The position numbers and the translations under genes are program-made. Of a stretch of DNA of 34,704 nt, positions 6,837 to 21,089 are shown in pieces. The stretch lies in the NCBI RefSeq assembly GCF_000765215.1, contig NZ_JPJE01000023.1, forward strand, positions 1-34,704, written 5' to 3'. Each line of letters opens with the position of its first letter. Position 1 is the first letter of the stretch. This stretch comes from Eubacterium sp. ER2. GTDB lineage: Bacteria > Bacillota > Clostridia > Lachnospirales > Lachnospiraceae. Under the pieces are notes generated by a model, which was not told the origin of the DNA, did not search any database, and saw only the letters and a list, made by a program, of their open reading frames with translations.

Positions 6837-7015
6837 GCGTCTCTTCCCAGGACAGAAAAACGCATATTATAATAGAGAAAACCTATATATAAAAGTATAC
6901 ATTATAAAAATCAATAGCAAACCTCGCTCTTGTCATTGTCCCATAATTGTAAAAGTGTTACGGTTATAAAAGGACTATTCTGAAAATATTCAGATACGCA
7001 AGAGGAGGTTTTTTT

Positions 7016-8290
7016 ATGGCTGATTACAGAAAAATGTGGGAAGATCTTGGTATGGATGTTGAGACGCACGACCAGCTTTGCGAGGTGCTGCCCCAGGCCT
7101 TTGGGGATGTCTATCTCTCCCAGGAAAACAGGCCGGAGTCTATGGACTATTATAATTTTGTGGTGGCGGAGATCCACGGTGTGAGGCCGGCGGAGCTCAT
7201 CGAGCACCAGAAAAAGGGCGGAAAGGTCTTCGGCACCTTCTGTGTGTACGTGCCCGATGAGATCGTGTTCGCAGCAGATGCCATCGCCACAGGGCTGTGC
7301 GGAGGCTCCCAGTTCTGGGTGCCGGGAGGAGAGAAGGTCCTTCCCACCAACACATGCCCCCTTATCAAGGCGTCTGTGGGCGCAAGGCTGGATCGGACCT
7401 GCCCCTTCTTCCGCATCGCGGATATGTATGTGGGTGAGACAACCTGCGACGGCAAAAAGAAGGCCTGGGAGATCCTGGCCGAGGATGTGCCGGTGCATGT
7501 GATGGATCTGCCTCAGATGAAGAGAGAGAAGGATGTCTGTTCCTGGGCCGATGAGATCCGCACCTTCAAGAAAGTAGTGGAGGACTTTACCGGAAACGAG
7601 ATTACGGCGGAGAAGCTGGCGGCCAGCATACATATGATCAACAACAAGAGAAAGGCCCTGGAGAGGCTCTATGCTTTCCGAAAGAACGACAAGCTCCCCA
7701 TCAGCGGAAAGGATGTGCTCCTCATCTCTCAGATCGCCTTCTACGACGATCCTACAAGATTTACTGAGATGACTAACAAGCTCTGCGATGAGCTGGAGAA
7801 GAGGGTGGCAGACGGCGTCAGCGTGTTCCCGGAGGGAACAAAGAGGATCATGCTGACAGGTACGCCTATGGCCATCCCTAACTGGAAGATCCACAACCTG
7901 GTGGAGACAAGCGGCGGCGCCGTAGTCTGCGAGGAGATGTGCACGGGAACCCGCTACTTTGAGCGTCTTGTAGACGAGACAAAGACCACAGTGGACGAGC
8001 AGATTGACGCCCTGGCGGAGAGATACATGGGCATTAACTGTGCATGCTTCACTCCCAACCACGCAAGGATTGACGATATTATCCGCCTGGCTAAGGAGTA
8101 CAAGGTGGATGGCGTTATTGACGTGAACCTGAAGTTCTGCAGCCTCTACGATGTGGAGGGATACACAGTGGAGAGAGAGCTCCAGAAGGCCGGCATCCCT
8201 GTTCTTGGCATTGAGACAGACTACGTGGACAGCGACGCGCAGCAGCTCCGCACAAGGATCAGCGCTTTCATCGAGATGCTGGGAGAGTAG
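7016..8290 (+). CDS. Double-cubane-type 2-hydroxyacyl-CoA dehydratase/anaerobic reductase, 424 aa
   Basis: This belongs to the 2-hydroxyacyl-CoA dehydratase D-component/BcrB-BcrC superfamily and resembles the double-cubane-cluster proteins (DCCP) that receive electrons from an ATP-driven activator to reduce small molecules. Conserved cysteines are at 76 (GTFCVYVP), 95, 114 (NTCPLIK), 129 (TCPFF) and 144 (GETTCDGKKKA); more follow near the C-terminus (VVCEEMC, NCACF). A 36-residue N-terminal extension distinguishes it from its paralogue at 9394. GAGGAGG lies before the ATG. The DUF3343 gene starts 2 bases after its stop. No CoA-transferase or acyl-CoA dehydrogenase is near, which argues against an ordinary amino-acid fermentation dehydratase. 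The substrate is unknown. Confidence 0.85.
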   Translation: MADYRKMWEDLGMDVETHDQLCEVLPQAFGDVYLSQENRPESMDYYNFVVAEIHGVRPAELIEHQKKGGKVFGTFCVYVPDEIVFAADAIATGLCGGSQFWVPGGEKVLPTNTCPLIKASVGARLDRTCPFFRIADMYVGETTCDGKKKAWEILAEDVPVHVMDLPQMKREKDVCSWADEIRTFKKVVEDFTGNEITAEKLAASIHMINNKRKALERLYAFRKNDKLPISGKDVLLISQIAFYDDPTRFTEMTNKLCDELEKRVADGVSVFPEGTKRIMLTGTPMAIPNWKIHNLVETSGGAVVCEEMCTGTRYFERLVDETKTTVDEQIDALAERYMGINCACFTPNHARIDDIIRLAKEYKVDGVIDVNLKFCSLYDVEGYTVERELQKAGIPVLGIETDYVDSDAQQLRTRISAFIEMLGE

Positions 8291-8291
8291 A

Positions 8292-8552
8292 ATGAAAGAG
8301 ATACAGTATTATGTGCTTTTCCCAAACCATGACAATGGGATGAGGCTCTATAAGAAGCTGAAAGAAGAGGGGGTGGGTGCGGTCATCGCGCCCACCCCGA
8401 GAAGTGCCAGCAAATGCTGCGGCATCTCCCTTCTGGTGAAGGAGAAGGATATAGAGAGGATTCGCGGCTGCGTGCAGGAGAACGGCATTGAGATACTGGA
8501 TATCGCGGCGGTGGAGAAGGATGTGAACCCGGGCCGTGACAGATACTGCTGA
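8292..8552 (+). CDS. DUF3343 family protein, 86 residues
   Basis: A small cytosolic protein matching DUF3343 (PF11823), with a ferredoxin-like pattern and the Cys pair KCCG at 41-44. A further Cys is at 60 and the last residue is Cys86. Families of this kind are frequently encoded beside cysteine desulfurases, YedF/YedE and selenium-dependent enzymes, and they have been suggested to carry sulfur or selenium; no function is proven. It lies 2 bases after the first dehydratase-like gene and 58 bases before the activator, inside the same operon. A persulfide carrier between the desulfurase and the Fe-S proteins would fit the context, but this is inference. Confidence 0.8.
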   Translation: MKEIQYYVLFPNHDNGMRLYKKLKEEGVGAVIAPTPRSASKCCGISLLVKEKDIERIRGCVQENGIEILDIAAVEKDVNPGRDRYC

Positions 8553-8610
8553 TAAACTGCTGAGAAAAAAGGACAAGCCTTTGACAGAAGGTGGAAAGGA
8601 TAACAGGAAA

Positions 8611-9387
8611 ATGGATTACATAGGCATTGATATAGGCTCCACAGCTGCCAAGGTGGTGGCCAGGGGAGACCATGAGATGGCTTTCACGCTCCCTACAGGG
8701 TGGAGCAGTAAGGAGACGGCCCGGATCATCAGGGATCGGCTTGGGCAGGAGGGCGTTGACGTGTCGGATGAGTCGGCTAAAGTGGTGGCTACCGGCTACG
8801 GGCGCGTGGCGGTGGAGTACGCCGACTACGTCATCACAGAGATTACCTGCCACGCCAGGGGAGGCCGTGAGATGGGAAGCGACGACTGCGCGGTCATCGA
8901 CGTGGGAGGACAGGACACCAAGGTGATCCTCATCAGCCACGGCGCGGTCCAGGACTTCCTCATGAACGACAAGTGCTCCGCGGGAACCGGGAAGTTCCTG
9001 GAGATCATGGCCAACCGGCTGGGAGTGGATCTGGGCGAGCTGTTCGACATGGCGGAGGCGGGACAGACCCTGTCCATCAGCTCCCTGTGCACGGTGTTCG
9101 CCGAGTCCGAGGTCATCAACTATATCGGTGAAGGCCGCAGGCGGGAGGACATTGCCGCCGGGGTGGTGGACTCTGTGGCGGCCAAGGTGGCCCAGCTGGC
9201 TATGAGAAAGAATCTGCCGGACCAGATCATCCTGACGGGCGGGCTCTCGGACAGCCGGTATTTTACAAAGATCCTGTCCGAAAAGATTGGAAAGACCGTG
9301 TCCCCCACAGACAGAGGCAGATATGCGGGCGCCCTGGGGGCGGCCCTGCTGGCGGAGGAGAAGACAAAGAGACGGAAGGAGAAATAA
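8611..9387 (+). CDS. ATP-dependent activator of 2-hydroxyacyl-CoA dehydratase-like enzymes (HgdC/YjiL family)
   Basis: This 258-residue protein is the homodimeric ASKHA-fold ATPase that fires an electron from its bridging [4Fe-4S] cluster into the partner Fe-S protein. The phosphate-binding loop GIDIGSTAAK (5-14), a second loop VIDVGGQDTK (95-104) and LTGG near the end bind ATP. Cys122 (KCSAGTGKF) and Cys160 (SSLCTVFAE) match the two cluster ligands of the family, one cluster shared by two subunits. I chose the ATG at 8611, where the conserved fold begins and GGAAAGGA lies about 10 bases upstream, instead of an earlier in-frame start at 8536. It sits between two paralogous partner genes and probably serves both. 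Confidence 0.9.
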   Translation: MDYIGIDIGSTAAKVVARGDHEMAFTLPTGWSSKETARIIRDRLGQEGVDVSDESAKVVATGYGRVAVEYADYVITEITCHARGGREMGSDDCAVIDVGGQDTKVILISHGAVQDFLMNDKCSAGTGKFLEIMANRLGVDLGELFDMAEAGQTLSISSLCTVFAESEVINYIGEGRRREDIAAGVVDSVAAKVAQLAMRKNLPDQIILTGGLSDSRYFTKILSEKIGKTVSPTDRGRYAGALGAALLAEEKTKRRKEK

Positions 9388-9393
9388 AACAAA

Positions 9394-10545
9394 ATGGAAC
9401 TGATCAAAGATTTACCAGAAGTATTTGAAGAATTTGCAGAACAGAGGAAAAACTCTTTCCTCGGGGTGAAAAAGCTGAAGGAGCAGGGAGTCCCCGTTGT
9501 GGGATCTTACTGTACTTATTTCCCCCAGGAGATTGCCATGGCCTTGGGGGCCGCCACAGTGTCTCTGTGCTCCACCTCCGATGAGACCATAGCGGACGCG
9601 GAGAGGGATCTGCCCAAGAACCTGTGCCCTCTTATCAAGTCCAGCTACGGGTTTGCCAAGACAGACAAATGTCCCTTCTTCTATTTCTCTGACGTGGTTG
9701 TGGGTGAGACGACCTGCGACGGAAAGAAGAAGATGTATGAATATATGTCCCAGTTTAAGGATGTATTTATCATGGAGCTGCCCAACACCCAGAGACCGGA
9801 GGCTCTGCAGCTTTGGAAAGGGGAGATCATCCGCTTTAAGGAATACCTGGAGAAGAAATTCGACGTTACCATCACAGAGGACGACATCCGGGAGGCCATC
9901 CGGGTCAACAACCAGGTCAGGACATCCCTGAAGCACCTCTACGAAGTGATGCGCAATGACCCGGCTCCCATCACAGGCCACGATCTCTTCAAGGTCCTGT
10001 ACGGAAGCACCTTCAAATTTGACAGGAAGGCCATCCCGGGAGAGGTAGACGCCCTGGTTGAGAAGATCAATAAGGAGTACGCGGAGGGGAAAATGCTGGA
10101 GAAGAAGCCCCGCATCCTCATCACCGGTTGCCCGGTGGGCGGCGCCACGGAGAAGATCATCGACGCGGTGGAGAACAACGGCGGAGTTGTAGTCACCTTT
10201 GAGAACTGCAGCGGAGCCAAATCCATCGACAAGCTGGTGGACGAGGAGGAGCCGGATGTATACCAGGCTCTGGCGGAGAGGTATCTTAATATCGGATGCT
10301 CCGTCATGACACCGGACAAGAACCGCTTTGAGCTCCTGGGAAGGCTGATCGACGAGTACAAGGTGGACGGCGTGGTGGAGATGACTCTCCAGGCGTGCCA
10401 CACCTACAATGTGGAATCCTTTGCCATCCGCAAATTTGTCAATGAGGAGAAGGGCATCCCCTATATCAATGTGGAGACGGATTACTCCCAGGCAGATATC
10501 GGACAGCTGAACACCCGTATTGCAGCCTTTATCGAGATGCTGTAA
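9394..10545 (+). CDS. YjiM-like 2-hydroxyacyl-CoA dehydratase family protein, 383 aa
   Basis: A second member of the dehydratase/double-cubane superfamily, resembling Escherichia coli YjiM, which is likewise encoded beside an activator (YjiL). Cysteines 40 (GSYCTYFP), 59, 78 (NLCPLIK), 93 (KCPFF) and 108 (GETTCDGKKKM) match those of the 424-residue paralogue at a constant offset of 36, so the two are homologous without gaps over this region. Later parts differ (TGCPVGGATEK here, TGTPMAIPNWK there). The ATG is 6 bases after the activator stop, with GGAAGGA a little far upstream. It may form a homodimer, or a heterodimer with the first paralogue; sequence cannot decide. No terminator is obvious after it. 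Confidence 0.85.
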   Translation: MELIKDLPEVFEEFAEQRKNSFLGVKKLKEQGVPVVGSYCTYFPQEIAMALGAATVSLCSTSDETIADAERDLPKNLCPLIKSSYGFAKTDKCPFFYFSDVVVGETTCDGKKKMYEYMSQFKDVFIMELPNTQRPEALQLWKGEIIRFKEYLEKKFDVTITEDDIREAIRVNNQVRTSLKHLYEVMRNDPAPITGHDLFKVLYGSTFKFDRKAIPGEVDALVEKINKEYAEGKMLEKKPRILITGCPVGGATEKIIDAVENNGGVVVTFENCSGAKSIDKLVDEEEPDVYQALAERYLNIGCSVMTPDKNRFELLGRLIDEYKVDGVVEMTLQACHTYNVESFAIRKFVNEEKGIPYINVETDYSQADIGQLNTRIAAFIEML

Positions 10546-10603: not shown

Positions 10604-10633
10604 TTGGACGGGCCAGGTATGAATGGCTATAAT
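10604..10633 (+). promoter_or_regulatory. Promoter of the first rhodanese lipoprotein gene
   Basis: TTGGAC (10604-10609), an 18-bp spacer and a perfect TATAAT (10628-10633) lie about 40 bases before the start codon. This suggests the lipoprotein gene is transcribed independently of the upstream operon. Confidence 0.55.
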
Positions 10634-10674: not shown

Positions 10675-11781
10675 ATGAAGAAGAGAGTGTTAGCGGCACT
10701 TTTATGTATGGCCATGACAACAGCTATGCTGGCCGGATGCGGCTCAGAGTCATCCACGAAGGAGGATACCACTCAGGAGTCCACAGACGAGACGACAGAT
10801 GAGTCAGCAGAGAATGTGGAAGCAGAGCCGGTGGAGACGAGAACCGTGTATGTAACTCCCCAGTGGGTACAGAGCGCACTGAACGGTGACCAGGAGGGAT
10901 ATGAGGATATCCTGATCGCGGAGGTAGGCTACGGCGACGTGGCAGACTGCGCGTCCTACAATGAGGGACATGTCCCGGGAGCTATCTATGTAGATAACTG
11001 CGAGGTGGAGGACGCCACAGGAAGCGAGGAGGGTGCATACAACCTTCTGGCAGCGGACGAGGTAGTGGACAACATGCTCAGCCACGGCATCACAAAGGAC
11101 ACAAAGGTAGTTCTCTACGGAGCGGACGTCAGCGGTACAGCCAGACAGGCATTTGCCTACCTCTGGGCAGGTGTTGAGGATGTCAAGGTTATCAACGGCG
11201 GAATTGACGCCTGGAAGGCTGCGGGCTATGATACAGAGACAGATGTGAACGAGGGCGAGGCCGCAGATGACTTCGGCGTAGAGGCCCCCGCGCATCCGGA
11301 GTACCGTCTGGATATAGTAGATGCGAAAGAGAAGCTGGAGACAGATGACAACTTTAAGCTTGTCAGCATCCGCAGCGAGGAAGAGTGGCTTGGCGAGACA
11401 AGCGGATACAACTACATTGACAGGGCAGGTGAGCCGGAGGGCGCCGTGTGGGGCAAGGGCTCAGACTCCTCCTCCGATGTAAACCAGTTCCTTAACGATG
11501 ACGGAACAGTAAAGGATCTGGCAGGCTTTGAGGAAGTGTGGGCAGACTGTGACTTCACACTGGACAATGAGCTTTCCTTCTACTGCGGCACAGGCTGGAG
11601 AGCAAGCGTTCCCTTCCTTGTCCTGTACGAGAATGGATACGACAACATTTCCGTATATGACGGCGGATGGTACGAGTGGCAGATGCATGACGATTATCCG
11701 GTACAGGTAGGCGACCCTGCAAGCGATGACTGTGTGCACACGACAGTAGGCGAGCTGCCGACAGATAAAGCTGCTAAATAA
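10675..11781 (+). CDS. Two-domain rhodanese (sulfurtransferase) lipoprotein
   Basis: This 368-residue exported lipoprotein has a signal peptide ending in the lipobox LAGC (Cys22), then an acidic Ser/Thr/Glu linker to about residue 55. Two rhodanese domains follow. The first (about 60-195) contains the structural motifs GHVPGAIYV and GGIDAWKAAG but has Ala-Asp (YGADVSG) where the catalytic Cys should be. The second (about 205-355) ends in YCGTGWRAS with Cys304, the active-site persulfide residue. This inactive-plus-active arrangement is typical of thiosulfate or 3-mercaptopyruvate sulfurtransferases. Anchoring outside the membrane is less usual and implies handling of extracytoplasmic sulfur. 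AAGGAGG precedes the ATG. A related lipoprotein lies at 18919. Confidence 0.87.
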   Translation: MKKRVLAALLCMAMTTAMLAGCGSESSTKEDTTQESTDETTDESAENVEAEPVETRTVYVTPQWVQSALNGDQEGYEDILIAEVGYGDVADCASYNEGHVPGAIYVDNCEVEDATGSEEGAYNLLAADEVVDNMLSHGITKDTKVVLYGADVSGTARQAFAYLWAGVEDVKVINGGIDAWKAAGYDTETDVNEGEAADDFGVEAPAHPEYRLDIVDAKEKLETDDNFKLVSIRSEEEWLGETSGYNYIDRAGEPEGAVWGKGSDSSSDVNQFLNDDGTVKDLAGFEEVWADCDFTLDNELSFYCGTGWRASVPFLVLYENGYDNISVYDGGWYEWQMHDDYPVQVGDPASDDCVHTTVGELPTDKAAK

Positions 11782-11815
11782 GGAGCTGACGGATTATAAT
11801 CTGCCGAATGATAAG

Positions 11816-11879
11816 CAGGATGCAAAAAGCGCTGCCGTTTAACCTGACGGCAGCGCTTTTTCTCTCGAAAAGCATCCTG
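11816..11879. terminator. Nested inverted repeat, strong hairpin with T-run
   Basis: AAAAAGCGCTGCCGT (11824-11838) pairs perfectly with ACGGCAGCGCTTTTT (11847-11861), a 15-bp stem with an 8-base loop. It can act as an intrinsic terminator on either strand. A second 8-bp pair, CAGGATGC (11816-11823) with GCATCCTG (11872-11879), brackets it. It lies between the lipoprotein gene and the next gene, whose start is only 37 bases beyond the T-run. Confidence 0.8.
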
Positions 11880-11898
11880 ACAAAAGCTGGAGGAGACA

Positions 11899-12345
11899 AT
11901 GAAAAAGATAGCATATATCCTGGCGCTGATCCTGGAGATCGGGGCCTATGCAGGCGCCTGGATCATACATTATTTCGCAAGGCGGAAGCTGGGGATGGTC
12001 AGGTATCTGAATTACAAGAACATGTCCTGGGAGAGGGACTACCCGGTGGAGGCGCTGAAGCTGGCCTGCGTGGCAGCGGCGGCCCTGCTGACAGTCCTGA
12101 TCCTTCTCTTCTTCCTGAAAAAGCGCAGGGAGACCACCCTGCTGGCAGGGGCTATGACGGCCCTCATGATCGCATTGACGGCGCTGTATGGGGGTTACAC
12201 ACTGGGATGCTCCACGGACGTCATGACAGACTACTATTTTATCAGCATCCTGTTCCTTGTGGCGGCGATGATCCAGATCCTCAAGACAGGCATTGCCGTG
12301 CTGATATCAAAGAGGAGAGCAGAGGGAGAGCAAGGTGAAAAATAA
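11899..12345 (+). CDS. Small integral membrane protein, function unknown
   Basis: A 148-residue protein with about four predicted hydrophobic helices: near 5-27, 55-77 (ALKLACVAAAALLTVLILLF), 82-104 and 110-135. A short charged loop (RRKLGMVRYLNYKNMSWERD, about 28-47) separates the first two. I recognise no family. The Cys in LGCSTD is the only one in the second half. GGAGGAG precedes the ATG. The stop overlaps the start of the TVP38-family gene by 11 bases, so the two are translationally coupled and the product probably works with that membrane protein. It lies directly after a strong terminator hairpin with no clear promoter between, so its expression may rely on read-through. Confidence 0.75.
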   Translation: MKKIAYILALILEIGAYAGAWIIHYFARRKLGMVRYLNYKNMSWERDYPVEALKLACVAAAALLTVLILLFFLKKRRETTLLAGAMTALMIALTALYGGYTLGCSTDVMTDYYFISILFLVAAMIQILKTGIAVLISKRRAEGEQGEK

Positions 12346-13018
12346 AAAGCTTTGGATTTTTGTGGGGCTGGTGGTTCTGGTTCTGATCCTCAACCACATA
12401 TTCGGGTGGTCCTCCTACCTGGGGGACACGGACAACCTGGCCTTTTTGGAGACCATGATACAGGACAATCTGGCGGGGGCCATCGCCATTTACATGGCGG
12501 TGACGGTGATTGGCAGCGTGGTCCTGGCCCTCCCCGGCGTTACCTTTGCCATACTGGCAGGTCTTTTGTTCGGACCGGCGCTTGGCACGGTGCTGTGCGC
12601 CCTGTCCGCCACAGCCGGGGCAGTGCTTGCCTTTCTGGCGGGAAGATTTTTCTTGCGGGACAGCATAAGGCCCGCGGCTATGAAGAACAGGTATCTGAAA
12701 AAATGGCTCTTTGACGAGTCCGGGAAGAACCAGATCTTTATCCTCATGATCACCAGGCTTGTGCCGGTCTTTCCCTACAATCTCCAGAACTTTGCCTACG
12801 GTGTGACAGACATCAGCTTTGCCACCTACACGGTGGGATCCTTTGTGTTCATGATCCCCGGGACGGCTATGTACACCATCGGGACAGCCGGCCTGGCGGA
12901 CGCCGAGAACCGTCTGCTCTACATAGGCATCGCGGTGGCCATTGCGGTGGTGGTGATCCTTGTGGGAATGGTTTTGAAGAAAAAATATATACAGGAGAAG
13001 ACAGATGAGTCAGAATAA
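12335..13018 (+). CDS. TVP38/TMEM64 (DedA-superfamily) membrane protein, copy 1
   Basis: This 227-residue integral membrane protein belongs to the TVP38/TMEM64 family, relatives of DedA proteins now linked to lipid translocation. An N-terminal helix (8-25) is followed by the re-entrant segment ALPGVTFAILAGLLFGP and a second family segment ITRLVPVFPYNLQNFAYG, with the conserved Arg, Pro and Gly. C-terminal helices follow, then a basic and acidic tail. It starts with GTG inside the end of the preceding gene, and its last 14 bases overlap the start of the Fe-S gene. It is GC-rich, whereas the second family member at 13993 is AT-rich, so the two do not look like a recent tandem copy. Confidence 0.85.
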   Translation: MKNKKLWIFVGLVVLVLILNHIFGWSSYLGDTDNLAFLETMIQDNLAGAIAIYMAVTVIGSVVLALPGVTFAILAGLLFGPALGTVLCALSATAGAVLAFLAGRFFLRDSIRPAAMKNRYLKKWLFDESGKNQIFILMITRLVPVFPYNLQNFAYGVTDISFATYTVGSFVFMIPGTAMYTIGTAGLADAENRLLYIGIAVAIAVVVILVGMVLKKKYIQEKTDESE

Positions 13019-14012
13019 GAAGACCGCGGATCCCTCTGCCTGCGTGCACTGCCATCTTTGTCAGAAAAGCTGTCGGTTTTTGGAAAAGTATCAGATGGAC
13101 ATTGGGGATATCCATAAGATAGAACCATTGGCATACCATTGTTTCCTCTGTGGAAAATGTACACAGGTATGTCCAAAAGGGATAGACGGCAGAGAGATCA
13201 TATTAAATCTCAGACGCAGTCAGGTAAGGGAAAATAAGGGAAGAGTAAAAGAAAAAGGCTATGCGATGCTCATAAAAGAGAAAAAGGATTATATGTTTCA
13301 GAATTACCGGAATGGGAGATATAAAAGAGTTCTTTTTCCAGGGTGCAATTTTCCGTCCTTTTATCCTGAAACGACAAGATTGCTTGCGGATCTTTTGTGG
13401 GAAAAGGATGAGATTGGGATAGTCTTTGACTGTTGCGGGAAACCAGTGGCAGAATTGGGGATGGAAGAAGATGCGCAGAAGATTGTAAACCGAATAGATC
13501 GAAAACTGCAGGCTATGCATGTGGATGAGCTTATTATGGTCTGCCCAAACTGTTATGCCTATTTGAATGGGAGACTAAATATAAAAGTTGTTATGATCTA
13601 TGACAAGCTGAGGGAACTAGGGATCGGAGAAAAGATCAAGGAAAAAATCAGGATCTTTCCGCCGTGTCCGGATCGGGGCACGGAGAAAATCCTAGGTACG
13701 ATCCGCCCGTTTTTAGAAGAAGAGCCGGAAATTATCACAGAGAGTCAGTGCTGCGGACTGGGGGGATGTGCCGGACAGAAGGAGGCGGATCTGGCGATGG
13801 AAATGGTAAAAGCGGCAGCAACGGGAGGAAATGTATGTACATACTGCGCTTCCTGCTCGGGAAGCTTTGCAAGAAAAGGCTTCGATCAGGCTGATCACAT
13901 TCTCCTGAAAATCCTGGGAATTACTGAGAAACCAGATACTGCAAAATCAATGATAAATCGAATGAAGACAAAGTACTGGCAGGGAGGAGCGTATGGAAAA
14001 AAAGAAAAATAG
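13005..14012 (+). CDS. CCG-domain iron-sulfur protein (HdrB/GlpC/LutA-like)
   Basis: A 335-residue cytosolic electron-transfer protein. Two 4Fe-4S motifs are at the N-terminus: Cys13-16-19-23 (CVHCHLCQKSC) and Cys46-49-52-56 (CFLCGKCTQVCP). Two cysteine-rich CCG-type domains follow: one with PGCNFP, DCCGKP and CPNCYAY, the second with PPCPD, QCCGLGG and CASCSGS. This is the build of heterodisulfide-reductase subunit B and glycerol-3-phosphate or lactate dehydrogenase Fe-S subunits, so it probably passes electrons to or from a disulfide or quinone-like partner. Its partner flavoprotein is not nearby. It overlaps both neighbouring genes. Composition and codon use change from GC-rich to AT-rich within the first 25-30 codons, which suggests a recombination junction. 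Confidence 0.82.
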   Translation: MSQNKKTADPSACVHCHLCQKSCRFLEKYQMDIGDIHKIEPLAYHCFLCGKCTQVCPKGIDGREIILNLRRSQVRENKGRVKEKGYAMLIKEKKDYMFQNYRNGRYKRVLFPGCNFPSFYPETTRLLADLLWEKDEIGIVFDCCGKPVAELGMEEDAQKIVNRIDRKLQAMHVDELIMVCPNCYAYLNGRLNIKVVMIYDKLRELGIGEKIKEKIRIFPPCPDRGTEKILGTIRPFLEEEPEIITESQCCGLGGCAGQKEADLAMEMVKAAATGGNVCTYCASCSGSFARKGFDQADHILLKILGITEKPDTAKSMINRMKTKYWQGGAYGKKEK

Positions 14013-14703
14013 CTGGATGAAAAAAGTTATCTTACTGTTATGCGCAGCGGCTGCTGTTGCATGCTATTATCTGATACCGGCAGTCAATGAGAATATGAAT
14101 AAAGTCTTTAAGATGTTTGCGAGTGGCGATTTTGGAGTTGTAAAGGATTTTGTGGCATCATATGGTGCATATGCTGCGCTCATTTCCTTTCTTCTGATGA
14201 TATTTCAGTCCGTGGCAGCGCCTCTGCCGGCCTTTTTGTTGACTTTTGCCAATGCCAATCTGTTCGGTTGGTGGCAGGGCGCTATTTTATCCTGGACCAG
14301 TGCTATGGCAGGAGCAGCTGTATGCTTTTGTATTGCAAAGATACTTGGGAGAGATGTGGTGGAACGGCTGACAAGTAAAGCCGGATTGAAACAAATAGAT
14401 GAGTTTTTTGAGAAATATGGGAAAAATACAGTCCTTGTATGCCGTTTACTTCCATTTGTATCATTTGATATCGTAAGCTATGCGGCGGGGCTTACATCCA
14501 TGTCTTTTGGATCTTTTTTTATCGCGACAGGTATTGGACAGTTGCCTGCAACGATTGTTTATTCCTATGTGGGAGGAATGTTGACAGGCGGTGCACAAAT
14601 GTTTGTGACAGCTTTAATGATATTGTTTGCTCTATCAGCTCTGATTGTTATGATCAGAAAAATATATATGGATAGACAAAAGAAAAAAGGAGGAAATGAG
14701 TAA
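13993..14703 (+). CDS. TVP38/TMEM64 (DedA-superfamily) membrane protein, copy 2
   Basis: A 236-residue integral membrane protein of the same family as the one at 12335. A basic N-terminus leads to a first helix (10-27). The family segments are APLPAFLLTFANANLFGWW and VCRLLPFVSFDIVSYAAG, followed by two C-terminal helices and a Lys-rich tail. GGGAGGA lies before the ATG, which is inside the Fe-S gene (20-base overlap), and the stop shares one base with the next start (TAATG). Such tight coupling ties it to the Fe-S protein and the CMD protein. TVP38 proteins often accompany ArsS-type clusters; a role in moving a lipid-linked product is possible but unproven. Confidence 0.85.
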   Translation: MEKKKNSWMKKVILLLCAAAAVACYYLIPAVNENMNKVFKMFASGDFGVVKDFVASYGAYAALISFLLMIFQSVAAPLPAFLLTFANANLFGWWQGAILSWTSAMAGAAVCFCIAKILGRDVVERLTSKAGLKQIDEFFEKYGKNTVLVCRLLPFVSFDIVSYAAGLTSMSFGSFFIATGIGQLPATIVYSYVGGMLTGGAQMFVTALMILFALSALIVMIRKIYMDRQKKKGGNE

Positions 14704-15035
14704 TGGAAACTTATTACAACCCGGAGGATCTTGCAAAATTTGGTACGATTGGCGAGGAGGCTCCCCAGTTGGCAGAGAAATTTTTTGACTATTATGGAGC
14801 TGTGTTTGCAGAGGGAGCTCTGACCGCAAGAGAGAAAGCTTTGATCGCACTGGCTGTAGCACATGCGGTGCAGTGCCCTTACTGTATAGACTCTTATACA
14901 AACGACTGCCTGAATAAGGGAGTCAGCGAAGAGCAGATGATAGAAGCTGTTCATGTAGCGGCTGCGATCAGAGGGGGAGCTACACTGGTGCATGGTGTGC
15001 AAATGAAAAATATTGTAAAGAAACTGGAGCTGTAA
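14703..15035 (+). CDS. AhpD/carboxymuconolactone decarboxylase-like protein of arsenosugar clusters
   Basis: A 110-residue protein of the CMD/AhpD fold. The redox motif CPYC (Cys58 and Cys61) is followed by a third cysteine (Cys69) in CIDSYTNDC, and His54 precedes it in AVAHAVQC. This matches the peroxidase-like subfamily named for its association with arsenosugar biosynthesis (TIGR04029 type, from memory). CMD proteins of this type use the CxxC pair for peroxide or disulfide reduction, usually as oligomers. It lies directly before the ArsS-like gene (4-base gap), the conserved order for that subfamily. The substrate is unknown. Confidence 0.82.
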   Translation: METYYNPEDLAKFGTIGEEAPQLAEKFFDYYGAVFAEGALTAREKALIALAVAHAVQCPYCIDSYTNDCLNKGVSEEQMIEAVHVAAAIRGGATLVHGVQMKNIVKKLEL

Positions 15036-15039
15036 AAAT

Positions 15040-16023
15040 ATGAGTCAGGCATTGGAAGATTTAAGAGGATTAAAGTGTATTCCTGATTTTGAGGACAGGA
15101 TTACATCGGAGGAATATAAATATACAACAGATAAGTTGGATGTTATGCAGATTAATGTGGGCAGACTGTGTAACCTTGCCTGTAAACACTGTCACGTAGA
15201 GGCGGGACCGGGCAGAACAGAAATCATGCCCCGAAAAGTCATGGAGGCCTGCCTTGCAGTCTGCAGGGAGCAGCAGGTGTCCACTATCGACATAACCGGA
15301 GGAGCACCTGAGATGAACCCGGACTTTGAATGGCTTGTGGAGGAGTCCTGTAAAATATGCAGTCATGTGATTGTCCGTACTAACCTTGTTATTTTAAAAG
15401 AAGAGAAGTATAGACATCTGCCGAAATTTTATGCAGATCATAAAGTGGAGGTAGTCTGCTCCCTCCCCTATTACAGGGCCAAGGAGATGAACAGGGTCAG
15501 AGGAGACGGCACATTTGAGACTGCTATAGAGGTGATCCGGGAACTCAACAAGCTGGGCTATGGAAAAGAAGAGGATCTGGTGCTGAACATGGTGTATAAT
15601 CCTGCCGGAGCATTTTTCCCGCCGGCACAGGATGCTATGGAAAAAGAGTATAAAATGAAATTGTGGAAGGACTACGGTATTGTGTTCAATAGTCTCTTTA
15701 CGATCACCAATAATCCTATGGGACGTTTTGAGACCTTTTTGAAGAGAAGCGGAAATTTGGAAAGTTATATGAAAAAGCTTTCTGATGCGTTTAATACAGC
15801 TACTCTTCCGGGGCTTATGTGCCGGTTCCAGATTTCAGTGAGATATGACGGAAAAGTGTACGACTGTGATTTTAATCAGGCCGCAGACCTGCCTGTCCTG
15901 ACAGGAGAAACGATTTTTGACATGGTGGGTAAACCCTATAAAAAGCGGAAGATATGTCTTGCAAATCACTGCTACGGATGTACAGCAGGGCAGGGATCCA
16001 GCTGTGGCGGAGCAACAGAGTAA
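15040..16023 (+). CDS. arsS: ArsS-like radical SAM enzyme (arsenosugar biosynthesis type)
   Basis: A 327-residue radical SAM protein with the cluster motif CNLACKHC (Cys44, Cys48, Cys51) followed by HVEAGPGRTE, characteristic of the radical SAM/Cys-rich family TIGR04167 that includes ArsS. ArsS transfers the 5'-deoxyadenosyl group of SAM to dimethylarsenite on the way to arsenosugars. The Cys-rich C-terminus (CRFQ, CDFN, CLANHCYGC and a final SSCGG) is of SPASM type and would hold auxiliary clusters or bind the substrate atom. GGAG lies about 12 bases upstream of the ATG. The CMD gene before it and the glycosyltransferase after it match the known neighbourhood. No arsM is in the window, so another acceptor (sulfur, selenium or arsenic supplied elsewhere) is open. 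Confidence 0.85.
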   Translation: MSQALEDLRGLKCIPDFEDRITSEEYKYTTDKLDVMQINVGRLCNLACKHCHVEAGPGRTEIMPRKVMEACLAVCREQQVSTIDITGGAPEMNPDFEWLVEESCKICSHVIVRTNLVILKEEKYRHLPKFYADHKVEVVCSLPYYRAKEMNRVRGDGTFETAIEVIRELNKLGYGKEEDLVLNMVYNPAGAFFPPAQDAMEKEYKMKLWKDYGIVFNSLFTITNNPMGRFETFLKRSGNLESYMKKLSDAFNTATLPGLMCRFQISVRYDGKVYDCDFNQAADLPVLTGETIFDMVGKPYKKRKICLANHCYGCTAGQGSSCGGATE

Positions 16024-16034
16024 GGGAGGATACA

Positions 16035-16463
16035 ATGAAACAAGAAGAGATCAGGGAGTTGTTTATAAAGGGAATAGACTGTTCACAGGTGGTCGCCGGG
16101 GCATTTGCAGAAGAAATGGGAATGACAGAAGAAGAGGCAAGAAAAGTATCTGCCTGCTTCGGAGGTGGGATGATGTGCGGGGAAACCTGCGGGGCAGTTA
16201 CGGGAGCTTTGATGGTTCTTGGAATGAAATATGGTCATTGCAAGGAAGACGACATGGATCAGAAGAACATTATGATGCAGAAAACAGCAGAATTTAAGGC
16301 TTATTTTCAGCAGAAATATCCCTCCTGCATGTGCCGGGAACTTTTGGGGTATGATCTGGGAAAACCAGGGGAACTCGAGAAGGTGATGGAGGAAGGGCTC
16401 CTGCTTGACTTCTGTCCGGGGGTTGTGGAAGCTGCTATAGAGGCGCTGGAGAAGGTTCTGTAA
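16035..16463 (+). CDS. C_GCAxxG_C_C family redox-type protein
   Basis: A 142-residue Cys-rich protein of the C_GCAxxG_C_C family (PF09719). Cysteines are at 16, 41, 48, 52 and 69, with the signature CGETCGAVTG at 48-57, plus CMC in the C-terminal half and a last Cys near 131. The family is common in anaerobes and probably binds a metal or cluster, but its function is unknown. I used the ATG at 16035 with GGGAGGA upstream; an open frame extends further upstream but overlaps the ArsS gene. The stop is followed at once by the start of the glycosyltransferase fusion. A role as a thiol or metal partner of ArsS is inference from position. Confidence 0.8.
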   Translation: MKQEEIRELFIKGIDCSQVVAGAFAEEMGMTEEEARKVSACFGGGMMCGETCGAVTGALMVLGMKYGHCKEDDMDQKNIMMQKTAEFKAYFQQKYPSCMCRELLGYDLGKPGELEKVMEEGLLLDFCPGVVEAAIEALEKVL

Positions 16464-17801
16464 ATGGATAGAGCGATTATTGTGTTCACACGTGTGCCCC
16501 TGCCGGGAAAGACAAAGACGCGTATGATGCCGGCATTGTCCGGGAAAGAGTGTGCCAGGTTGCACACTTACTTTCTGCAGGATATATGTGAAGCCTGTCA
16601 GGCGTGCAGAGAGGATGTGTATGTGAATTATACACCAGAGGATGAACAGAAAACAGGGATACTGCGGGATATTTTCGGCAGAGATGCAGAATACTTTCCA
16701 CAGCAGGGGGATACATTGGGGCAGAGAATGTACCACGCTATAGAAAAAGTGCTTGAGAAGGGATACAAAAGCTGTATCTTGATCGGTACCGATGTCCCGG
16801 AGCTCAGAGCTGAGCACATGATCCGGGCGTTTGATCTGCTTGTAGAACATGATATTGTATTTGGGAAAACAAAAGATGGCGGCTATTACCTGATCGGCAT
16901 GAAAAAGCCGTGGAAAGAAGCTTTTGGATTGGAACAATATGGTGTCAGTACAGTATTTGAGGAAACCCTTTGCAGACTTCGAAGTCTCGGGGTTTCTATC
17001 GGCTATACGGCTGAATTGCAGGATATGGACACACCGGCTGACCTTCAGGGGTATAGGGATCGTATGCGTGCAGATGATTTCCTGAAAGGATCAAAGACAG
17101 GGAAATATCTTGCGTCTAACAGCCGCATTTCCATTATCGTGCCTGTGTATAATGAAGAGAAGACGATAGGATACCTGCAGGATCAGCTCAGGGAACTGAA
17201 GGGCAAGTGTGAGATTATTCTGGTAGACGGAGGCAGTACTGACCATACTCTGGATAAGATCTCAAATGATTTCACATTATTACATGCTCCAAAAAGCCGT
17301 GCGGCTCAAATGAATGCCGGTGCGAAAGCAAGTCACGGTGATGTCCTTTTTTTCCTTCACTGTGACAGCGAGCTCCCGGCGCATCCTCTGGCCCAGATAC
17401 GGGAGGTCATGAGAGATCACCGGGCAGGATGCTTTGGGATTGCTTTTCATTCCCGGAATTTTTTCATGTTTACGTGCCGGATCATATCCAATCACCGGGT
17501 AAAGGACAGAAAAGTCATGTTCGGGGATCAGGGTATATTTGTTGACAGAAAGCTGTTCTTTGATATTGGAATGTTTCCTGAAATGCCGATCATGGAGGAT
17601 TATCAGTTCTCTCTGACACTGAAAGAGAAAGGGATACGTCTTGGGATGACAAGAAAAAGGATCTACACATCTGACCGGAGATTTCCAAAGGGAACTATTC
17701 CTAAACTGAAACTGATGTGGAAAATGAACCGGATGCGAAAAATGTACCGTGACAAGATCCCTGTACAGACAATTGCCAAGATGTACAAGGATATCAGATA
17801 A
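16464..17801 (+). CDS. DUF2064 nucleotidyltransferase-like / family 2 glycosyltransferase fusion
   Basis: A 445-residue cytosolic or membrane-associated protein joining two enzymes that are often separate. Residues 1 to about 205 are a DUF2064 (TIGR04282-type, CofC-like) domain with FTRVPLPGKTKTRM (8-21), LIGTDVPEL and KTKDGGYYLIG. Residues from about 220 are a GT-A glycosyltransferase (TIGR04283 type) with IIVPVYNEE, LVDGGSTDHT (about 253-262), SRAAQMNAGA, FLHCDSE and MEDYQFS (from about 377). In arsenosugar-type clusters these two families are neighbours; the fusion supports a shared pathway step, such as making and using an activated sugar. The start codon directly follows the previous stop. 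Sugar and acceptor cannot be read from the sequence. Confidence 0.85.
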   Translation: MDRAIIVFTRVPLPGKTKTRMMPALSGKECARLHTYFLQDICEACQACREDVYVNYTPEDEQKTGILRDIFGRDAEYFPQQGDTLGQRMYHAIEKVLEKGYKSCILIGTDVPELRAEHMIRAFDLLVEHDIVFGKTKDGGYYLIGMKKPWKEAFGLEQYGVSTVFEETLCRLRSLGVSIGYTAELQDMDTPADLQGYRDRMRADDFLKGSKTGKYLASNSRISIIVPVYNEEKTIGYLQDQLRELKGKCEIILVDGGSTDHTLDKISNDFTLLHAPKSRAAQMNAGAKASHGDVLFFLHCDSELPAHPLAQIREVMRDHRAGCFGIAFHSRNFFMFTCRIISNHRVKDRKVMFGDQGIFVDRKLFFDIGMFPEMPIMEDYQFSLTLKEKGIRLGMTRKRIYTSDRRFPKGTIPKLKLMWKMNRMRKMYRDKIPVQTIAKMYKDIR

Positions 17802-17827
17802 GTGACCTGCAGAAAGAGGAATATGTT

Positions 17828-18841
17828 ATGAATGAAATGGAACAGTTAATAGCCTATGCCGGGCTTCCCACATACAGACAGGCGCTGGGTCTTCCGGCAG
17901 ATATAACAGAGGAATACACCATGCTGGCACAGGGAGAATACAACAGAAACTATCTGTTTACCCATCCTCTGACAGGCAAGAAACTTTTATTTCGGGTCAA
18001 TTTTGGCAGCCAGATGCATTTGGATGATCAGATAGAGTACGAGTACCGAGCACTGAAACTGCTTGAAAGATCCGGACGTACGCCAAAGCCATTGTATGTA
18101 GATGGATCTTTGAAGCATATACCGTACGGTGTGATGGTGATGGAATATCTCCCGGGACATGTCCTGGATTACCGCACAGAAAATGTCTTCGCCGCACAGT
18201 GCCTTGCAGATATCCACAGTGTATCCGTGCCGGAAGATACGCATCTGATCGCACCGCTGAACCAGCTCCGCGCCATACTGGAAGAATGTGAGGAAATGTT
18301 TGCAAAATATGAGGGCTCCTTGCTGGCAGACCGGCAGAAAGCTGCAAAGATCCGTGAAATGCTGGACAAGGTATGGGAAAAGGCAGACAGCCTGGATAAG
18401 CCGGCATATCGCTGCTGTATCAACACAGAACTGAATTCAACAAACTTTCTTATTAACGGAGAGGAAAAGGACAACTATCTGATCGACTGGGAAAAGCCGT
18501 TATACGGTGAACCGGCCCAGGATCTTGGACATTTTCTGGCTCCCACGACCACATTCTGGAAGACGGATGTGATCCTCACTGTGCAGGAAATGAAGGACTT
18601 TATCGGTGAATATATAAAATATGTAGATGGCAGATTTAACACGGAGGGTCTGAAAGAAAGAACAATGGTATATGTCCCTGTCACATGCCTGAGAGGGATA
18701 ACCTGGTGTGCCATGGCATGGATAGAATACCAGCAGCCGGATAAAGAAATCTTTAACCGGTCTACGTATGAAAAACTAGAACAGTACTTAAGTTGGGAGT
18801 TTCTAAACAGGATTGAGAAATTTATAGACCATCAAGTATAG
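17828..18841 (+). CDS. Aminoglycoside/choline phosphotransferase-fold protein with altered catalytic loop
   Basis: A 337-residue cytosolic protein of the APH/choline-kinase fold (APH phosphotransferase family). The N-lobe has a nucleotide-binding region (LAQGEYNRNYLF) and the lysine/arginine strand LLFRVNFG; the hinge is MEYLPGHVL. The catalytic loop, normally HxDxxxxN, reads N199-T-E201-LNST-N206, so the usual His and catalytic Asp are replaced by Asn and Glu. The metal-binding Asp220 in LIDWEKP is kept. It may still phosphorylate slowly, use Glu as the base, or only bind its ligand. Context suggests a sugar or amino-alcohol substrate of the surrounding pathway. It is 26 bases after the glycosyltransferase fusion, with its own ribosome binding site. 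Confidence 0.8.
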   Translation: MNEMEQLIAYAGLPTYRQALGLPADITEEYTMLAQGEYNRNYLFTHPLTGKKLLFRVNFGSQMHLDDQIEYEYRALKLLERSGRTPKPLYVDGSLKHIPYGVMVMEYLPGHVLDYRTENVFAAQCLADIHSVSVPEDTHLIAPLNQLRAILEECEEMFAKYEGSLLADRQKAAKIREMLDKVWEKADSLDKPAYRCCINTELNSTNFLINGEEKDNYLIDWEKPLYGEPAQDLGHFLAPTTTFWKTDVILTVQEMKDFIGEYIKYVDGRFNTEGLKERTMVYVPVTCLRGITWCAMAWIEYQQPDKEIFNRSTYEKLEQYLSWEFLNRIEKFIDHQV

Positions 18842-18918
18842 TCTGTATGAAAAGTATTGTCATAGAAGGAGTGCGTTGCAAATATGCAGACAGGGTGTTG
18901 AGGGAGAGAGGAATAATA

Positions 18919-19920
18919 GTGAGTTTTAGAAAAAAAGTTTTGGTATTATGTTTGACGGCGGTATTGGCTGTGATAACGGGCTGTAGTGGGAACGATGCAG
19001 ACGATCCTGTTCCGGCTGTGACTGACAAAATAGATGATGATGTGCAGTATAAACAGAAAGAGGATAAGGTGGAAGAGGAAGAAACCATACCTGACGACGG
19101 ACATTTTCATGGAGAATATGTGGTTACCGGTGATTATGCTAAAGATCGAATAGGTGCAGAAGACGCCCTCTTTATCGATGCGAGAGGGTGGCAGAAGGCA
19201 GTCCTTGGCACACTGAAAGGTGCTATAGCCACGACCTGGCAGGATCTCTGTACGTGTCAGGAGGGACAGGCCGGTGATGCGGGCTGGGGAAAGATTCCTG
19301 CGCCGGATGATCTGGAGAAAAGATTGGGAGAGCTTGGGATCACAAAAGATAAAGAGATCATTGTATTTGCCGATACTGTGGACGGATGGGGGGATGATGC
19401 CCGCCTCGTGTGGGAATTTCTGGCAGCAGGCTTTGCGGACGTCAAAATGATAGACGGGGGTTATGCAGCGGCAAAAGCTGCGGGAGCAGAGACACAGCTG
19501 TTCGCCTCCGGCACCGAGCCAGGAGAAGTTACAGTTGACAAAATTGACAACACACATGTAATGACAACAGAGGAGCTGCAGGAAAACTATGATGATTATA
19601 CAATCGTGGATGTGAGGACAGACGAGGAATATAATGGCGCAATTCTGTACAATGAGGCACAGGGCGGCCATCTTCCGGGAGCCATCCATGTCCGGTATAC
19701 AGATCTGTTTCAGGAAGACGGGACACTGAAGCCCAATCAAGAGCTGATCGAAATGTTTGAGAGTGCCGGTGTAGATAAGGATGATAAGGTTGTTACGTAC
19801 TGCACAGGGGGCATTCGTTCAGCGTACACCCAACTGGTCCTTGAAATGTGTGGATACGAGAACACATGGAATTATGACCAGTCTTTCTGGCGCTGGTCGG
19901 TAGTTGGAGAAGTGGAGTAG
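18919..19920 (+). CDS. Second rhodanese (sulfurtransferase) lipoprotein
   Basis: From a GTG start at 18919 this gives a 333-residue exported lipoprotein. The signal peptide ends in VITGC (lipidated Cys22), an acidic linker follows, and then two rhodanese domains. The first (about 65-200) has DARGWQKAVLG and GGYAAAKAAG but no catalytic Cys (FADTVDG). The second (about 210-330) has VDVRTDEEY, GHLPGAIHV and the active loop YCTGGIRSA with Cys295. The upstream in-frame ATG (18847) would add a stretch that spoils the signal peptide; GAGAGGA lies 6-7 bases before the GTG. It has the same build as the lipoprotein at 10675 but is AT-richer and distinct in sequence. It lies 5 bases before the glycosyltransferase gene. 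Confidence 0.85.
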   Translation: MSFRKKVLVLCLTAVLAVITGCSGNDADDPVPAVTDKIDDDVQYKQKEDKVEEEETIPDDGHFHGEYVVTGDYAKDRIGAEDALFIDARGWQKAVLGTLKGAIATTWQDLCTCQEGQAGDAGWGKIPAPDDLEKRLGELGITKDKEIIVFADTVDGWGDDARLVWEFLAAGFADVKMIDGGYAAAKAAGAETQLFASGTEPGEVTVDKIDNTHVMTTEELQENYDDYTIVDVRTDEEYNGAILYNEAQGGHLPGAIHVRYTDLFQEDGTLKPNQELIEMFESAGVDKDDKVVTYCTGGIRSAYTQLVLEMCGYENTWNYDQSFWRWSVVGEVE

Positions 19921-19925
19921 GCAAA

Positions 19926-21089
19926 ATGGTCAGTATATTGATGTGTACATATAACAGAGAACAATATCTGAAGCGTGCGATCGACAGTGTGATAGCGCAG
20001 ACATATACAGAGTGGGAACTGATCATTGTGGATGACGGATCGACGGACAACACGGAGCAACTCGTGGCTTTCTATCCGGATCCAAGGATCCGCTATATAA
20101 AGATGGATAAAAATCGTTTTTACTGTTATGCCGCCAATTATGGCCTTCAGAATTGCAGAGGCGATTACGTGGCATTCCAGAACAGTGATGATGAATGGCT
20201 GCCGGACAAACTGGAAAAACAGATGAGGTTTATGGAGGAGCATACAGAGGCTGGCGCTTGTTTTACAGAAGTTACTTTAATCGACAATGAGGGGAATGAT
20301 CTGTCTGAGCGGTGTCTACCCATGGAAAAACTGTTTGAAAACCATTATGAAGATCAGAAAGACTGGATGCATTTTTTTCTGCATAAGGGGAACTGTGTGT
20401 GCCATCCATCTGCACTTGTACGAAAAAAAGTCATGGATGAGGTGGGTGGTTTTAACCTGATGTACTGCCAGCTTGCTGATTTTGATCTCTGGGTGCGTAT
20501 TGTCACTGAACATCCTATATATGTTCTGCCGGAAAAACTGATACGGTTCCGGTGGGATATAAATAAGCAGGAACAGGTAAGCAGCGCGACAGAAAAGAAC
20601 TTGATCCGCTCTTTTAACGAGCAGATGCTGATCCGAAAGCAGATGATAGATCGCCTGAGCGACGAACAGATGCTGCTGTTCTTTAAATCGGAATTTCAGA
20701 AGAAAACTTCTTCATCTCATCTTGAACTGGAATTTGAAAAAGCGTTTCTTTTAATGCACTGCATAGATGACTCCCCAGAAATGAGGCTTCCAGGCATAAA
20801 TAAGTTAGAGGAAGTTTTGAAAATAGAGGGGGCTGTTGAAGTCCTGGAGAGGCATTTTGATCTTACCTTGCAGGAAATTTATTCCTGGAATCGGGGCCAC
20901 TGGTATACAGATTTTATATTGGAACAGAAAATATCCGAGGCAAAGAGGCAGCTGGCTGCTTATCAGGAAAAAGTAAACATGCAGGAATATCTGATAGATC
21001 AATACCGGAATTCAAGCAGCTGGAGATATACGGAACCATTCAGGCGCGTAGGAAGAATGGTTCGGCGTATAGTCAAGAAAACAAAATAA
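19926..21089 (+). CDS. Family 2 glycosyltransferase
   Basis: This 387-residue protein starts with a GT-A fold domain (about 1-220): SILMCTYNREQYL at 3-15, VDDGSTDNT near 35-43, the NSDDEW metal-binding motif near 86-91 and the later LADFDLWVR segment. A helical C-terminal part of about 160 residues ends in a basic tail (RMVRRIVKKTK). The segment SSSWRYTEPFRR near the end recalls cell-surface polysaccharide glycosyltransferases. It adds a sugar from a nucleotide or lipid donor to an unknown acceptor. It is the last gene of the same-strand series and is followed by a clear terminator. Donor specificity cannot be assigned. Confidence 0.87.
   Translation: MVSILMCTYNREQYLKRAIDSVIAQTYTEWELIIVDDGSTDNTEQLVAFYPDPRIRYIKMDKNRFYCYAANYGLQNCRGDYVAFQNSDDEWLPDKLEKQMRFMEEHTEAGACFTEVTLIDNEGNDLSERCLPMEKLFENHYEDQKDWMHFFLHKGNCVCHPSALVRKKVMDEVGGFNLMYCQLADFDLWVRIVTEHPIYVLPEKLIRFRWDINKQEQVSSATEKNLIRSFNEQMLIRKQMIDRLSDEQMLLFFKSEFQKKTSSSHLELEFEKAFLLMHCIDDSPEMRLPGINKLEEVLKIEGAVEVLERHFDLTLQEIYSWNRGHWYTDFILEQKISEAKRQLAAYQEKVNMQEYLIDQYRNSSSWRYTEPFRRVGRMVRRIVKKTK

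Follow-up and report, generated by a model that had tools for sequence, protein, structure and literature searches.

In the arsenosugar pathway of ArsM and ArsS, the radical SAM enzyme ArsS transfers a 5′-deoxyadenosyl group to dimethylarsenite. In Escherichia coli, independent component analysis places ydjXYZ-ynjABCD (printed as ynjXYZABCD), ynjE, yedEF, and yjiLM in a single anaerobically active, uncharacterized iModulon, which its authors tie to molybdenum and selenium use (PMC7888660). A further set comprising DUF3343, a selenocysteine (Sec) lyase, an activase, HGD, YedE, and YedF is linked to SelD in Lin et al. 2015 (PMC5322559). Here, we describe a locus in which homologs from all of these systems lie side by side, on a 34,704-nucleotide stretch (hereafter the window; contig NZ_JPJE01000023.1) from the 3.27 Mb, 74-contig genome of Eubacterium sp. 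ER2. An original prediction, made from this DNA alone, had proposed that an ArsS-centered gene cluster at positions 10675–21089 specifies a sugar-linked sulfur, selenium, or arsenic metabolite.

Every gene listed by that prediction was located in this interval, all on the + strand, and the family matches were confirmed, several of them over curated cut-offs. A second same-strand run, composed of selenium-type genes, lies upstream at 5676–10545 and ends 129 bp before the first cluster gene, rhodanese 1. Since gene ends in the cluster overlap or sit within ≈26 bp of one another, a 117 bp gap after rhodanese 1 aside, the cluster genes likely form one operon. The cluster is real and recurs in relatives, and ordinary arsenosugar synthesis is not supported as a full account of it. 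Across the genomes that we examined, the cluster set tracks selenium use and not arsenic genes, which suggests a role in selenium handling by anaerobes; we assign a probability of roughly 55% to the reading that two gene sets of the selenium economy of anaerobes lie end to end here and that the cluster serves selenium handling. The genes of the two runs are as follows.

5676..6836, + strand: cysteine desulfurase/selenocysteine lyase-like protein of TIGR01977 (EF2568 family), 438 bits (cut-off 377)
7016..8290, + strand: double-cubane-cluster reductase 1, YjiM-like; NF040772, 515 bits (cut-off 350); 39% identity to E. coli YjiM
8289..8552, + strand: small DUF3343/Se_S_carrier protein; PF11823, 75 bits (cut-off 25); start chosen inside a longer open reading frame (ORF), 8151–8552
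8536..9387, + strand: activase ATPase, YjiL-like; TIGR00241, 225 bits (cut-off 125); 39% identity to YjiL
9394..10545, + strand: double-cubane-cluster reductase 2, YjiM-like; NF040772, 541 bits; 56% identity to YjiM over 384 columns
10675..11781, + strand: rhodanese lipoprotein 1, YnjE-like; rhodanese domains; 38% identity to YnjE over 298 columns
11899..12345, + strand: small membrane protein TM148; absent from the gene list of the original prediction
12335..13018, + strand: VTT1, YdjX-like TVP38 membrane protein; PF09335, 80 bits; 32% identity to YdjX
13005..14012, + strand: Fer4 plus CCG iron–sulfur protein, from domain matches; occupies the place of YdjY in E. coli
13993..14703, + strand: VTT2, YdjZ homolog; PF09335, 98 bits; 57% identity to E. 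coli YdjZ, 232 aa
14703..15035, + strand: CMD/AhpD-like protein of the ArsS-associated family TIGR04169, 204 bits (cut-off 120)
15040..16023, + strand: ArsS radical SAM enzyme, Cys form (C322); TIGR04167, 443 bits (cut-off 300)
16035..16463, + strand: C_GCAxxG_C_C redox protein, 66 bits (cut-off 47.4), scored on the longer ORF 15954–16463; start chosen from an upstream GGGAGG
16464..17801, + strand: TIGR04282 nucleotidyltransferase-like domain fused to a TIGR04283 GT2 domain, 194 bits (cut-off 134) and 225 bits (cut-off 182)
17828..18841, + strand: APH-fold small-molecule kinase; PF01636, 66 bits
18847..19920, + strand: rhodanese lipoprotein 2; PF00581, 99 bits; true start probably downstream
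19926..21089, + strand: GT2 glycosyltransferase; PF00535, 136 bits

One line of evidence for the selenium reading comes from gene distribution. The own genome of the window carries the Sec trait genes: SelD, which contains an in-frame TGA and for which the original prediction had proposed a search, is followed by SelA, SelB, and LysR_Se, and a few kilobases on by a TIGR01977 paralog of the window protein adjoining YedE, a SirA/TusA-like protein (a name assigned in this analysis), and DUF3343. ArsS scores over cut-off in 12 of 299 genomes drawn from the family and 9 of 391 drawn from the class, 20 distinct genomes in all. SelD is over cut-off in 11 of the 12 ArsS-bearing family genomes (11 with TGA) versus 8 of 24 ArsS-less ones (2 with TGA), and SelA is found in 11/12 versus 34/287 genomes of the family draw (Fisher 3e-9) and in 9/9, own genome included, versus 51/382 of the class draw. 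YdjZ behaves likewise. Best matches of YdjZ type are separated from other TVP38 proteins by a sharp gap in the class draw (≥239 versus ≤125 bits), and the 19 of 391 class genomes with YdjZ, which span eight families and include all nine with ArsS, all harbor SelA (19/19 versus 41/372 of the rest; Fisher 2e-17). This draw, not picked on SelA, is an unselected test of nesting. Among 80 family genomes, comprising all 45 with SelA and 35 of the 254 without it, YdjZ occurs in 12/12 with ArsS, 8/34 with SelA only, and 0/34 with neither. Over both draws, genomes with ArsS are nested within those with YdjZ (20/20), and genomes with YdjZ within those with SelA (37/38).

Physical linkage points in the same direction. 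In L069, from a Lachnospiraceae metagenome-assembled genome (loci and genomes of relatives are denoted L and G), SelA-SelB-YedE-SirA-like-DUF3343-TIGR01977-YedF lie directly ahead of YdjZ, with SelA cut by the locus end, and from YdjZ onward the order continues as a YdjX/TIGR04282 fusion, CCG, CMD, ArsS (with TGA), C_GCAxxG, and a YdjY/SBP fusion. In L039 (Muricomes), YedE and a SirA-like gene directly precede YdjZ. Homologs from three of the four unlinked E. coli iModulon operons are adjacent in the window (32–57% identity), and the fourth is represented beside the cluster by YedE and YedF in L069 and by YedE in L039. Inspection of L039 by eye also found a long inverted repeat (L039:4086-4194, core GGGTCTGACCC) that separates the SirA-like gene from YdjZ and may end the transcript ahead of YdjZ. 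SelD occurs in 1/72 loci carrying ArsS of the ordinary type, and SelA in 6 of 7 genomes of an anaerobe ArsS group (missing in G303) versus 1 of 8 ordinary-type genomes (G317).

We considered whether Sec codons within the cluster explain this association and rejected the idea, as ArsS alone among the cluster proteins showed an in-frame TGA. The window ArsS, which retains the conserved CNLxCxHC motif as CNLACKHC, a GSSC motif, and DUF3641, is of the Cys form, and the cluster genes of the window showed no internal in-frame TGA; the ArsS genes of L037 and L069 carry TGA at the site of C322, and ArsS of G504 was flagged with TGA as well. In the scanned loci, in-frame TGA codons in cluster proteins were confined to ArsS, in a tblastn scan that misses Sec near protein ends: it found the TGA of L069 and missed those of L037, read from the DNA, and G504, which lie near the protein end. 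A search of solved structures with ArsS surfaced only distant radical SAM proteins.

The gene grouping around ArsS exceeds chance, because 9 of 11 family relatives with ArsS encode at least one rhodanese, VTT, CCG, TIGR04282/83, APH, or GT protein near it; in the remaining loci, L038 and L040, only CMD and C_GCAxxG lie nearby. The original prediction had staked itself on conserved co-occurrence in relatives, and ArsS was indeed found there with rhodanese, TVP38, CCG, glycosyltransferase, and kinase genes. Its ArsS-centered view stands as to conservation of the cluster but not as to architecture, since the rhodanese/TVP38/CCG/kinase/glycosyltransferase part is a separate module and not a mere accessory of ArsS, and the evidence narrows its sulfur, selenium, or arsenic chemistry toward selenium. 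Within 8 kb of YdjZ at 46 loci, we find YdjX-like (34), CCG (33), TIGR04282 (28), TIGR04283 (28), rhodanese (19), APH (17), YnjB (15), ArsS (15), and YdjY (13) genes; the window and 14 further loci were fetched via ArsS, so that the ArsS share is uninformative. Of the other 31, 12 are in genomes with ArsS elsewhere and 19 in 18 ArsS-less genomes, and the latter 19 retain YdjX-like (15), CCG (15), YnjB (13), APH (10), and rhodanese (8) genes. Because TIGR04282 and TIGR04283 occur together at 12 of these 19 loci, the glycosyltransferase families named for arsenosugar often accompany the module without ArsS. L237 shows a near E. coli-like order (CCG-YdjZ-YnjB-unnamed-YnjC-YnjD-YnjE). In a same-genus relative, a second locus with YdjZ (L199; G296:C1:1472000-1491900) also contains YdjY, YdjX-like, CCG, and YnjB genes and is closer in composition to the E. 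coli operon.

Several observations weigh against the selenium reading, and we take them up with the explanations that they favor. The co-occurrence statistics are not corrected for phylogeny, and the family YdjZ counts lean toward nesting because that sample was picked on SelA. SelA was not found in G231 (82% complete), which has ArsS and YdjZ, nor in G303, which has ArsS. Selenium genes adjoin just 3 of 59 cluster loci, the window included, and in L036, from a same-genus relative, the cluster is retained but the upstream unit of the window does not lie next to it. The module might handle sulfur or general redox or envelope stress under anoxia, with no specific element, the Sec association reflecting ancestry and habitat. 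That genomes with SelA are a minority (45/299 in the family, 60/391 in the class), that the counts lack phylogenetic correction, and that FNR is listed in PMC3688515 as a direct activator of ydjXYZ-ynjABCD and ynjE all agree with this explanation. Nesting without exception in the class draw, over 19 genomes and eight families, and the position of YdjZ behind YedE-bearing selenium genes in two lineages argue against it, and we regard it as very improbable.

A second group of observations concerns arsenic. The original prediction had noted no ArsM and no arsenic pump in the window, and this extends to the genome: with stops read through, the best match to the ArsM model NF008823 reaches 57 bits (cut-off 263), and no ACR3 was found at E ≤ 1e-20 (the genome-wide search did not extend to ArsB, ArsR, or arsenate reductase). 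A recognizable ArsM hidden elsewhere in the genome was accordingly rejected. So was the idea that ArsS tracks ACR3, which occurs in 2 of the 12 ArsS-bearing family genomes versus 4 of 24 ArsS-less ones. Dimethylarsenite could nevertheless be imported from other microbes or a host, with ArsS, the kinase, and TIGR04282/TIGR04283 building an arsenosugar while the TVP38 proteins and rhodaneses aid arsenic handling. ArsS, CMD, TIGR04282, and TIGR04283 all score over their cut-offs, and G005 encodes an ArsS 69% identical to that of the window beside a 190-bit ArsM-like gene, for which reason a supply of dimethylarsenite from outside stays in consideration; this ArsS is as close to the window protein as several from genomes lacking ArsM. 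In addition, L163 encodes a fusion of ArsS with an ArsM-like domain (183 bits, cut-off 263). Two of the 12 ArsS-bearing family genomes contain ArsM (over cut-off, G124) or an ArsM-like gene (G005), as do the genomes of L069 and L073, and an ArsM-type gene is found in none of 24 chosen ArsS-less family genomes. GTDB contigs yielded 80 ArsS loci, and for 25 of them the host genome was searched at E ≤ 1e-20: ArsM was present in 13 of 17 chosen genomes of the ordinary type and in two of the eight that make up the anaerobe group (L067–L073 and L084, L067 being the same organism as G038), a group with a TVP38 gene in 6 of 8 loci. On an ArsS tree built by a quick method only, YdjZ-linked and ArsM-linked labels are clustered, with three changes each versus a shuffled mean of 14, and the YdjZ-linked group is not a single supported clade.

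An arsenic setting is also seen on the Enterococcus gilvus plasmid pCR1C, where a rhodanese/YdjZ-like pair near IS elements (L249:2912-4551) lies 525 bp downstream of ACR3-arsC, with 49% identity to rhodanese 2 and 53% to VTT2, respectively; this pair is a portable form of part of the module. Enterococcus is not a genus known for Sec decoding. Opposed to an arsenosugar made from imported dimethylarsenite are the 10 of 12 ArsS-bearing family genomes without ArsM, the missing ACR3 of the own genome and its lack of enrichment with ArsS, the pairing of TIGR04282 and TIGR04283 in ArsS-less genomes, and the way in which YdjZ follows SelA. On balance, we hold this explanation to be possible but unlikely.

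A number of further ArsS and ArsM arrangements were seen. G669 encodes two ArsS paralogs with N-terminal extensions (L163:8550-10580 and L161:8420-10480), of which one is the ArsM-like domain and the other, ≈370 residues without Pfam match, looks by its motifs like a calcineurin-type phosphoesterase. Matches to the ArsM model with in-frame TGA in L043 (G124; the match also holds a TAG) and at G301:C6:63549-64313 are possibly selenoprotein forms of ArsM, and an ArsM-like stretch with in-frame TGA lies near position 2840 of L246 (G613), ≈7 kb from a YdjZ gene. The ArsS cluster at L033:10765-14382 (G231) contains an NMT1/SsuA-type ABC transporter whose SaoX/SaoP matches are weak and under cut-off, and its CMD-ArsS pair is adjoined by a radical SAM gene of BioB/PylB-like type.

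The remaining points against the selenium reading concern molybdenum: E. coli YnjE is annotated as a molybdopterin synthase sulfurtransferase, and organisms that use Sec may use molybdenum as well. The module could support the molybdenum or tungsten cofactor of Sec-using anaerobes, with YnjE-like rhodaneses giving sulfur and the link to SelA being indirect. This would agree with the naming of molybdenum beside selenium by the iModulon authors (PMC7888660) and with the resemblance of TIGR04282 to CofC-type nucleotidyltransferases. On the other hand, YdjZ has selenium genes as its neighbors in L069 and L039 (molybdopterin genes were not searched there or genome-wide), and the window rhodaneses look like exported lipoproteins, as predicted from their sequences; we regard a molybdenum role as improbable.

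Returning to selenium, the predicted functions can be arranged into a pathway. The upstream set would constitute a selenium/sulfur trafficking and strong-reductant unit, and 10675–21089 a membrane and sugar-activation unit with the YdjX, YdjZ, and YnjE homologs as core, into which CMD-ArsS-C_GCAxxG would be inserted. Exported rhodanese lipoproteins may capture a species of selenium, or of a related metalloid, in a persulfide-type adduct bound to the enzyme; YdjX and YdjZ would carry the captured species or its product across the membrane, and the CCG, CMD, and C_GCAxxG proteins would reduce it. ArsS could then join 5′-deoxyadenosyl to the reduced species, and a housekeeping nucleosidase, which we assume, would remove adenine to leave a 5-substituted ribose. 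The freed sugar would be phosphorylated by the APH kinase, converted to a nucleotide sugar by TIGR04282, and transferred by TIGR04283/GT2 to give a conjugate for storage or export. The latter order is suggested by gene fusions, namely DUF2064-APH (L159 and L162), DUF2064-GT2 (window), VTT1-DUF2064 (L069), DUF2064-CCG (L034), and ArsM-like/ArsS (L163), which suggest a series from kinase to nucleotidyltransferase to glycosyltransferase, tied to membrane proteins; a further fusion is YdjY-SBP (L069). In this respect, the glycosylated product of the original prediction gains support, the kinase-TIGR04282 fusions speaking for a sugar-activation series. At position 5 of the ribose, selenium fits the gene company and arsenic fits the identity of ArsS (G005, 69%). 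In its most specific form, this proposal states that YdjX/YdjZ and the YnjE-type exported rhodanese, with YnjBCD if present, are dedicated to selenium acquisition and that ArsS of this clade takes a selenium substrate, leading to a selenosugar conjugate through a 5′-deoxyadenosyl-selenium compound, the kinase, TIGR04282, and TIGR04283; so narrow a version is tentative, and we judge it rather doubtful.

YdjZ emerges as a concrete candidate for selenium transport, as it is nested within SelA, follows YedE-bearing genes, and has an E. coli relative coexpressed with yedEF. A DedA protein was reportedly linked to selenite resistance in 2005, judging by the title of that study as cited in PMC3836016. 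According to two reviews (PMC9312934 and PMC13188914), a high-affinity system for selenium transport has yet to be identified in prokaryotes. If the selenium reading is true, naming TIGR04282 and TIGR04283 after arsenosugar biosynthesis is misleading for many anaerobes, and orphan E. coli operons gain a function. Part of this reading for the ydj/ynj genes has already been proposed, together with molybdenum, in PMC7888660, which was the sole source of a selenium tie in our partial survey; that survey found no link of these genes to ArsS. The ydj/ynj genes are absent from the consulted sections of PMC5322559 and PMC2432076, selenium appears in those of PMC10127716 solely in a reference title, and PMC12042036, in its consulted sections, uses a ynjE knockout only in a sulfane-sulfur screen.

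As to individual proteins of the two runs, the best matches to rhodanese 1 among solved structures are those of YnjE, which share its CGTGWRAS loop, and both rhodaneses appear by their sequence motif to carry lipoprotein signal sequences. The TIGR01977 protein scores 381 bits against the SclA model, under its cut-off of 525. TM148 has no Pfam or NCBIfam match, and homologs lie near a rhodanese gene in L036, L039, L190, L191, and L192. A search of solved structures with the APH kinase gave no substrate assignment (best E 0.015), and homologs of the terminal GT2 protein, 42–43% identical, are found in the L033 and L034 clusters. A search of the window for RNA families and tRNAs found none. Promoter and terminator scans gave 21 and 11 hits versus shuffle means of 16.5 and 8.3, and neither these scans nor a promoter-like site at 10605–10633, ahead of rhodanese 1, is used as support. 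Directly downstream of the cluster, at 21406–26658, lies a 1750 aa BspA-type leucine-rich repeat protein, and a similar protein is encoded near the ArsS cluster of L068.

Compared with the known systems, the window shares ArsS, the TIGR04169 CMD protein, TIGR04282, and TIGR04283, all over cut-off, with the arsenosugar pathway, but differs in the lack of a detected ArsM or ACR3 in its genome and in the presence of YdjX/YdjZ/YnjE-type proteins and selenium-type flanks. Rhodanese 1 matches the rhodanese of ExtH-type selenite/tellurite operons (NF040901) weakly, at 71 bits, far under the cut-off of 200. As in the selenium neighborhood of Lin et al. 2015, a Sec lyase-like protein, DUF3343, an activase, and HGD occur together, with YedE at the sel locus of the same genome; unlike in that neighborhood, YedE and YedF lie outside the window, and the set is joined to the YdjXZ/ArsS cluster. 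Finally, the window contains homologs of YdjX, YdjZ, YnjE, YjiL, YjiM, and DUF3343 and thus resembles the E. coli ydjXYZ-ynjABCDE and yjiLM-ytiA genes; YtiA, encoded beside yjiLM, also belongs to PF11823, with a marginal blastp match to the window DUF3343 protein (E 0.013). A CMD protein is present, although blastp does not match it to YnjA at 1e-3, and neither a YdjY lipoprotein nor a YnjBCD ABC transporter was found within 8 kb of the window YdjZ, the rest of the genome being outside the search for YnjBCD; YdjY homologs are found in relatives (L039, L041, L042, L069, L072, L073, and L084). In the window, the CCG protein stands in the YdjY position, and the set, in contrast to the E. coli operons, is contiguous, with ArsS, a kinase, and glycosyltransferases added.

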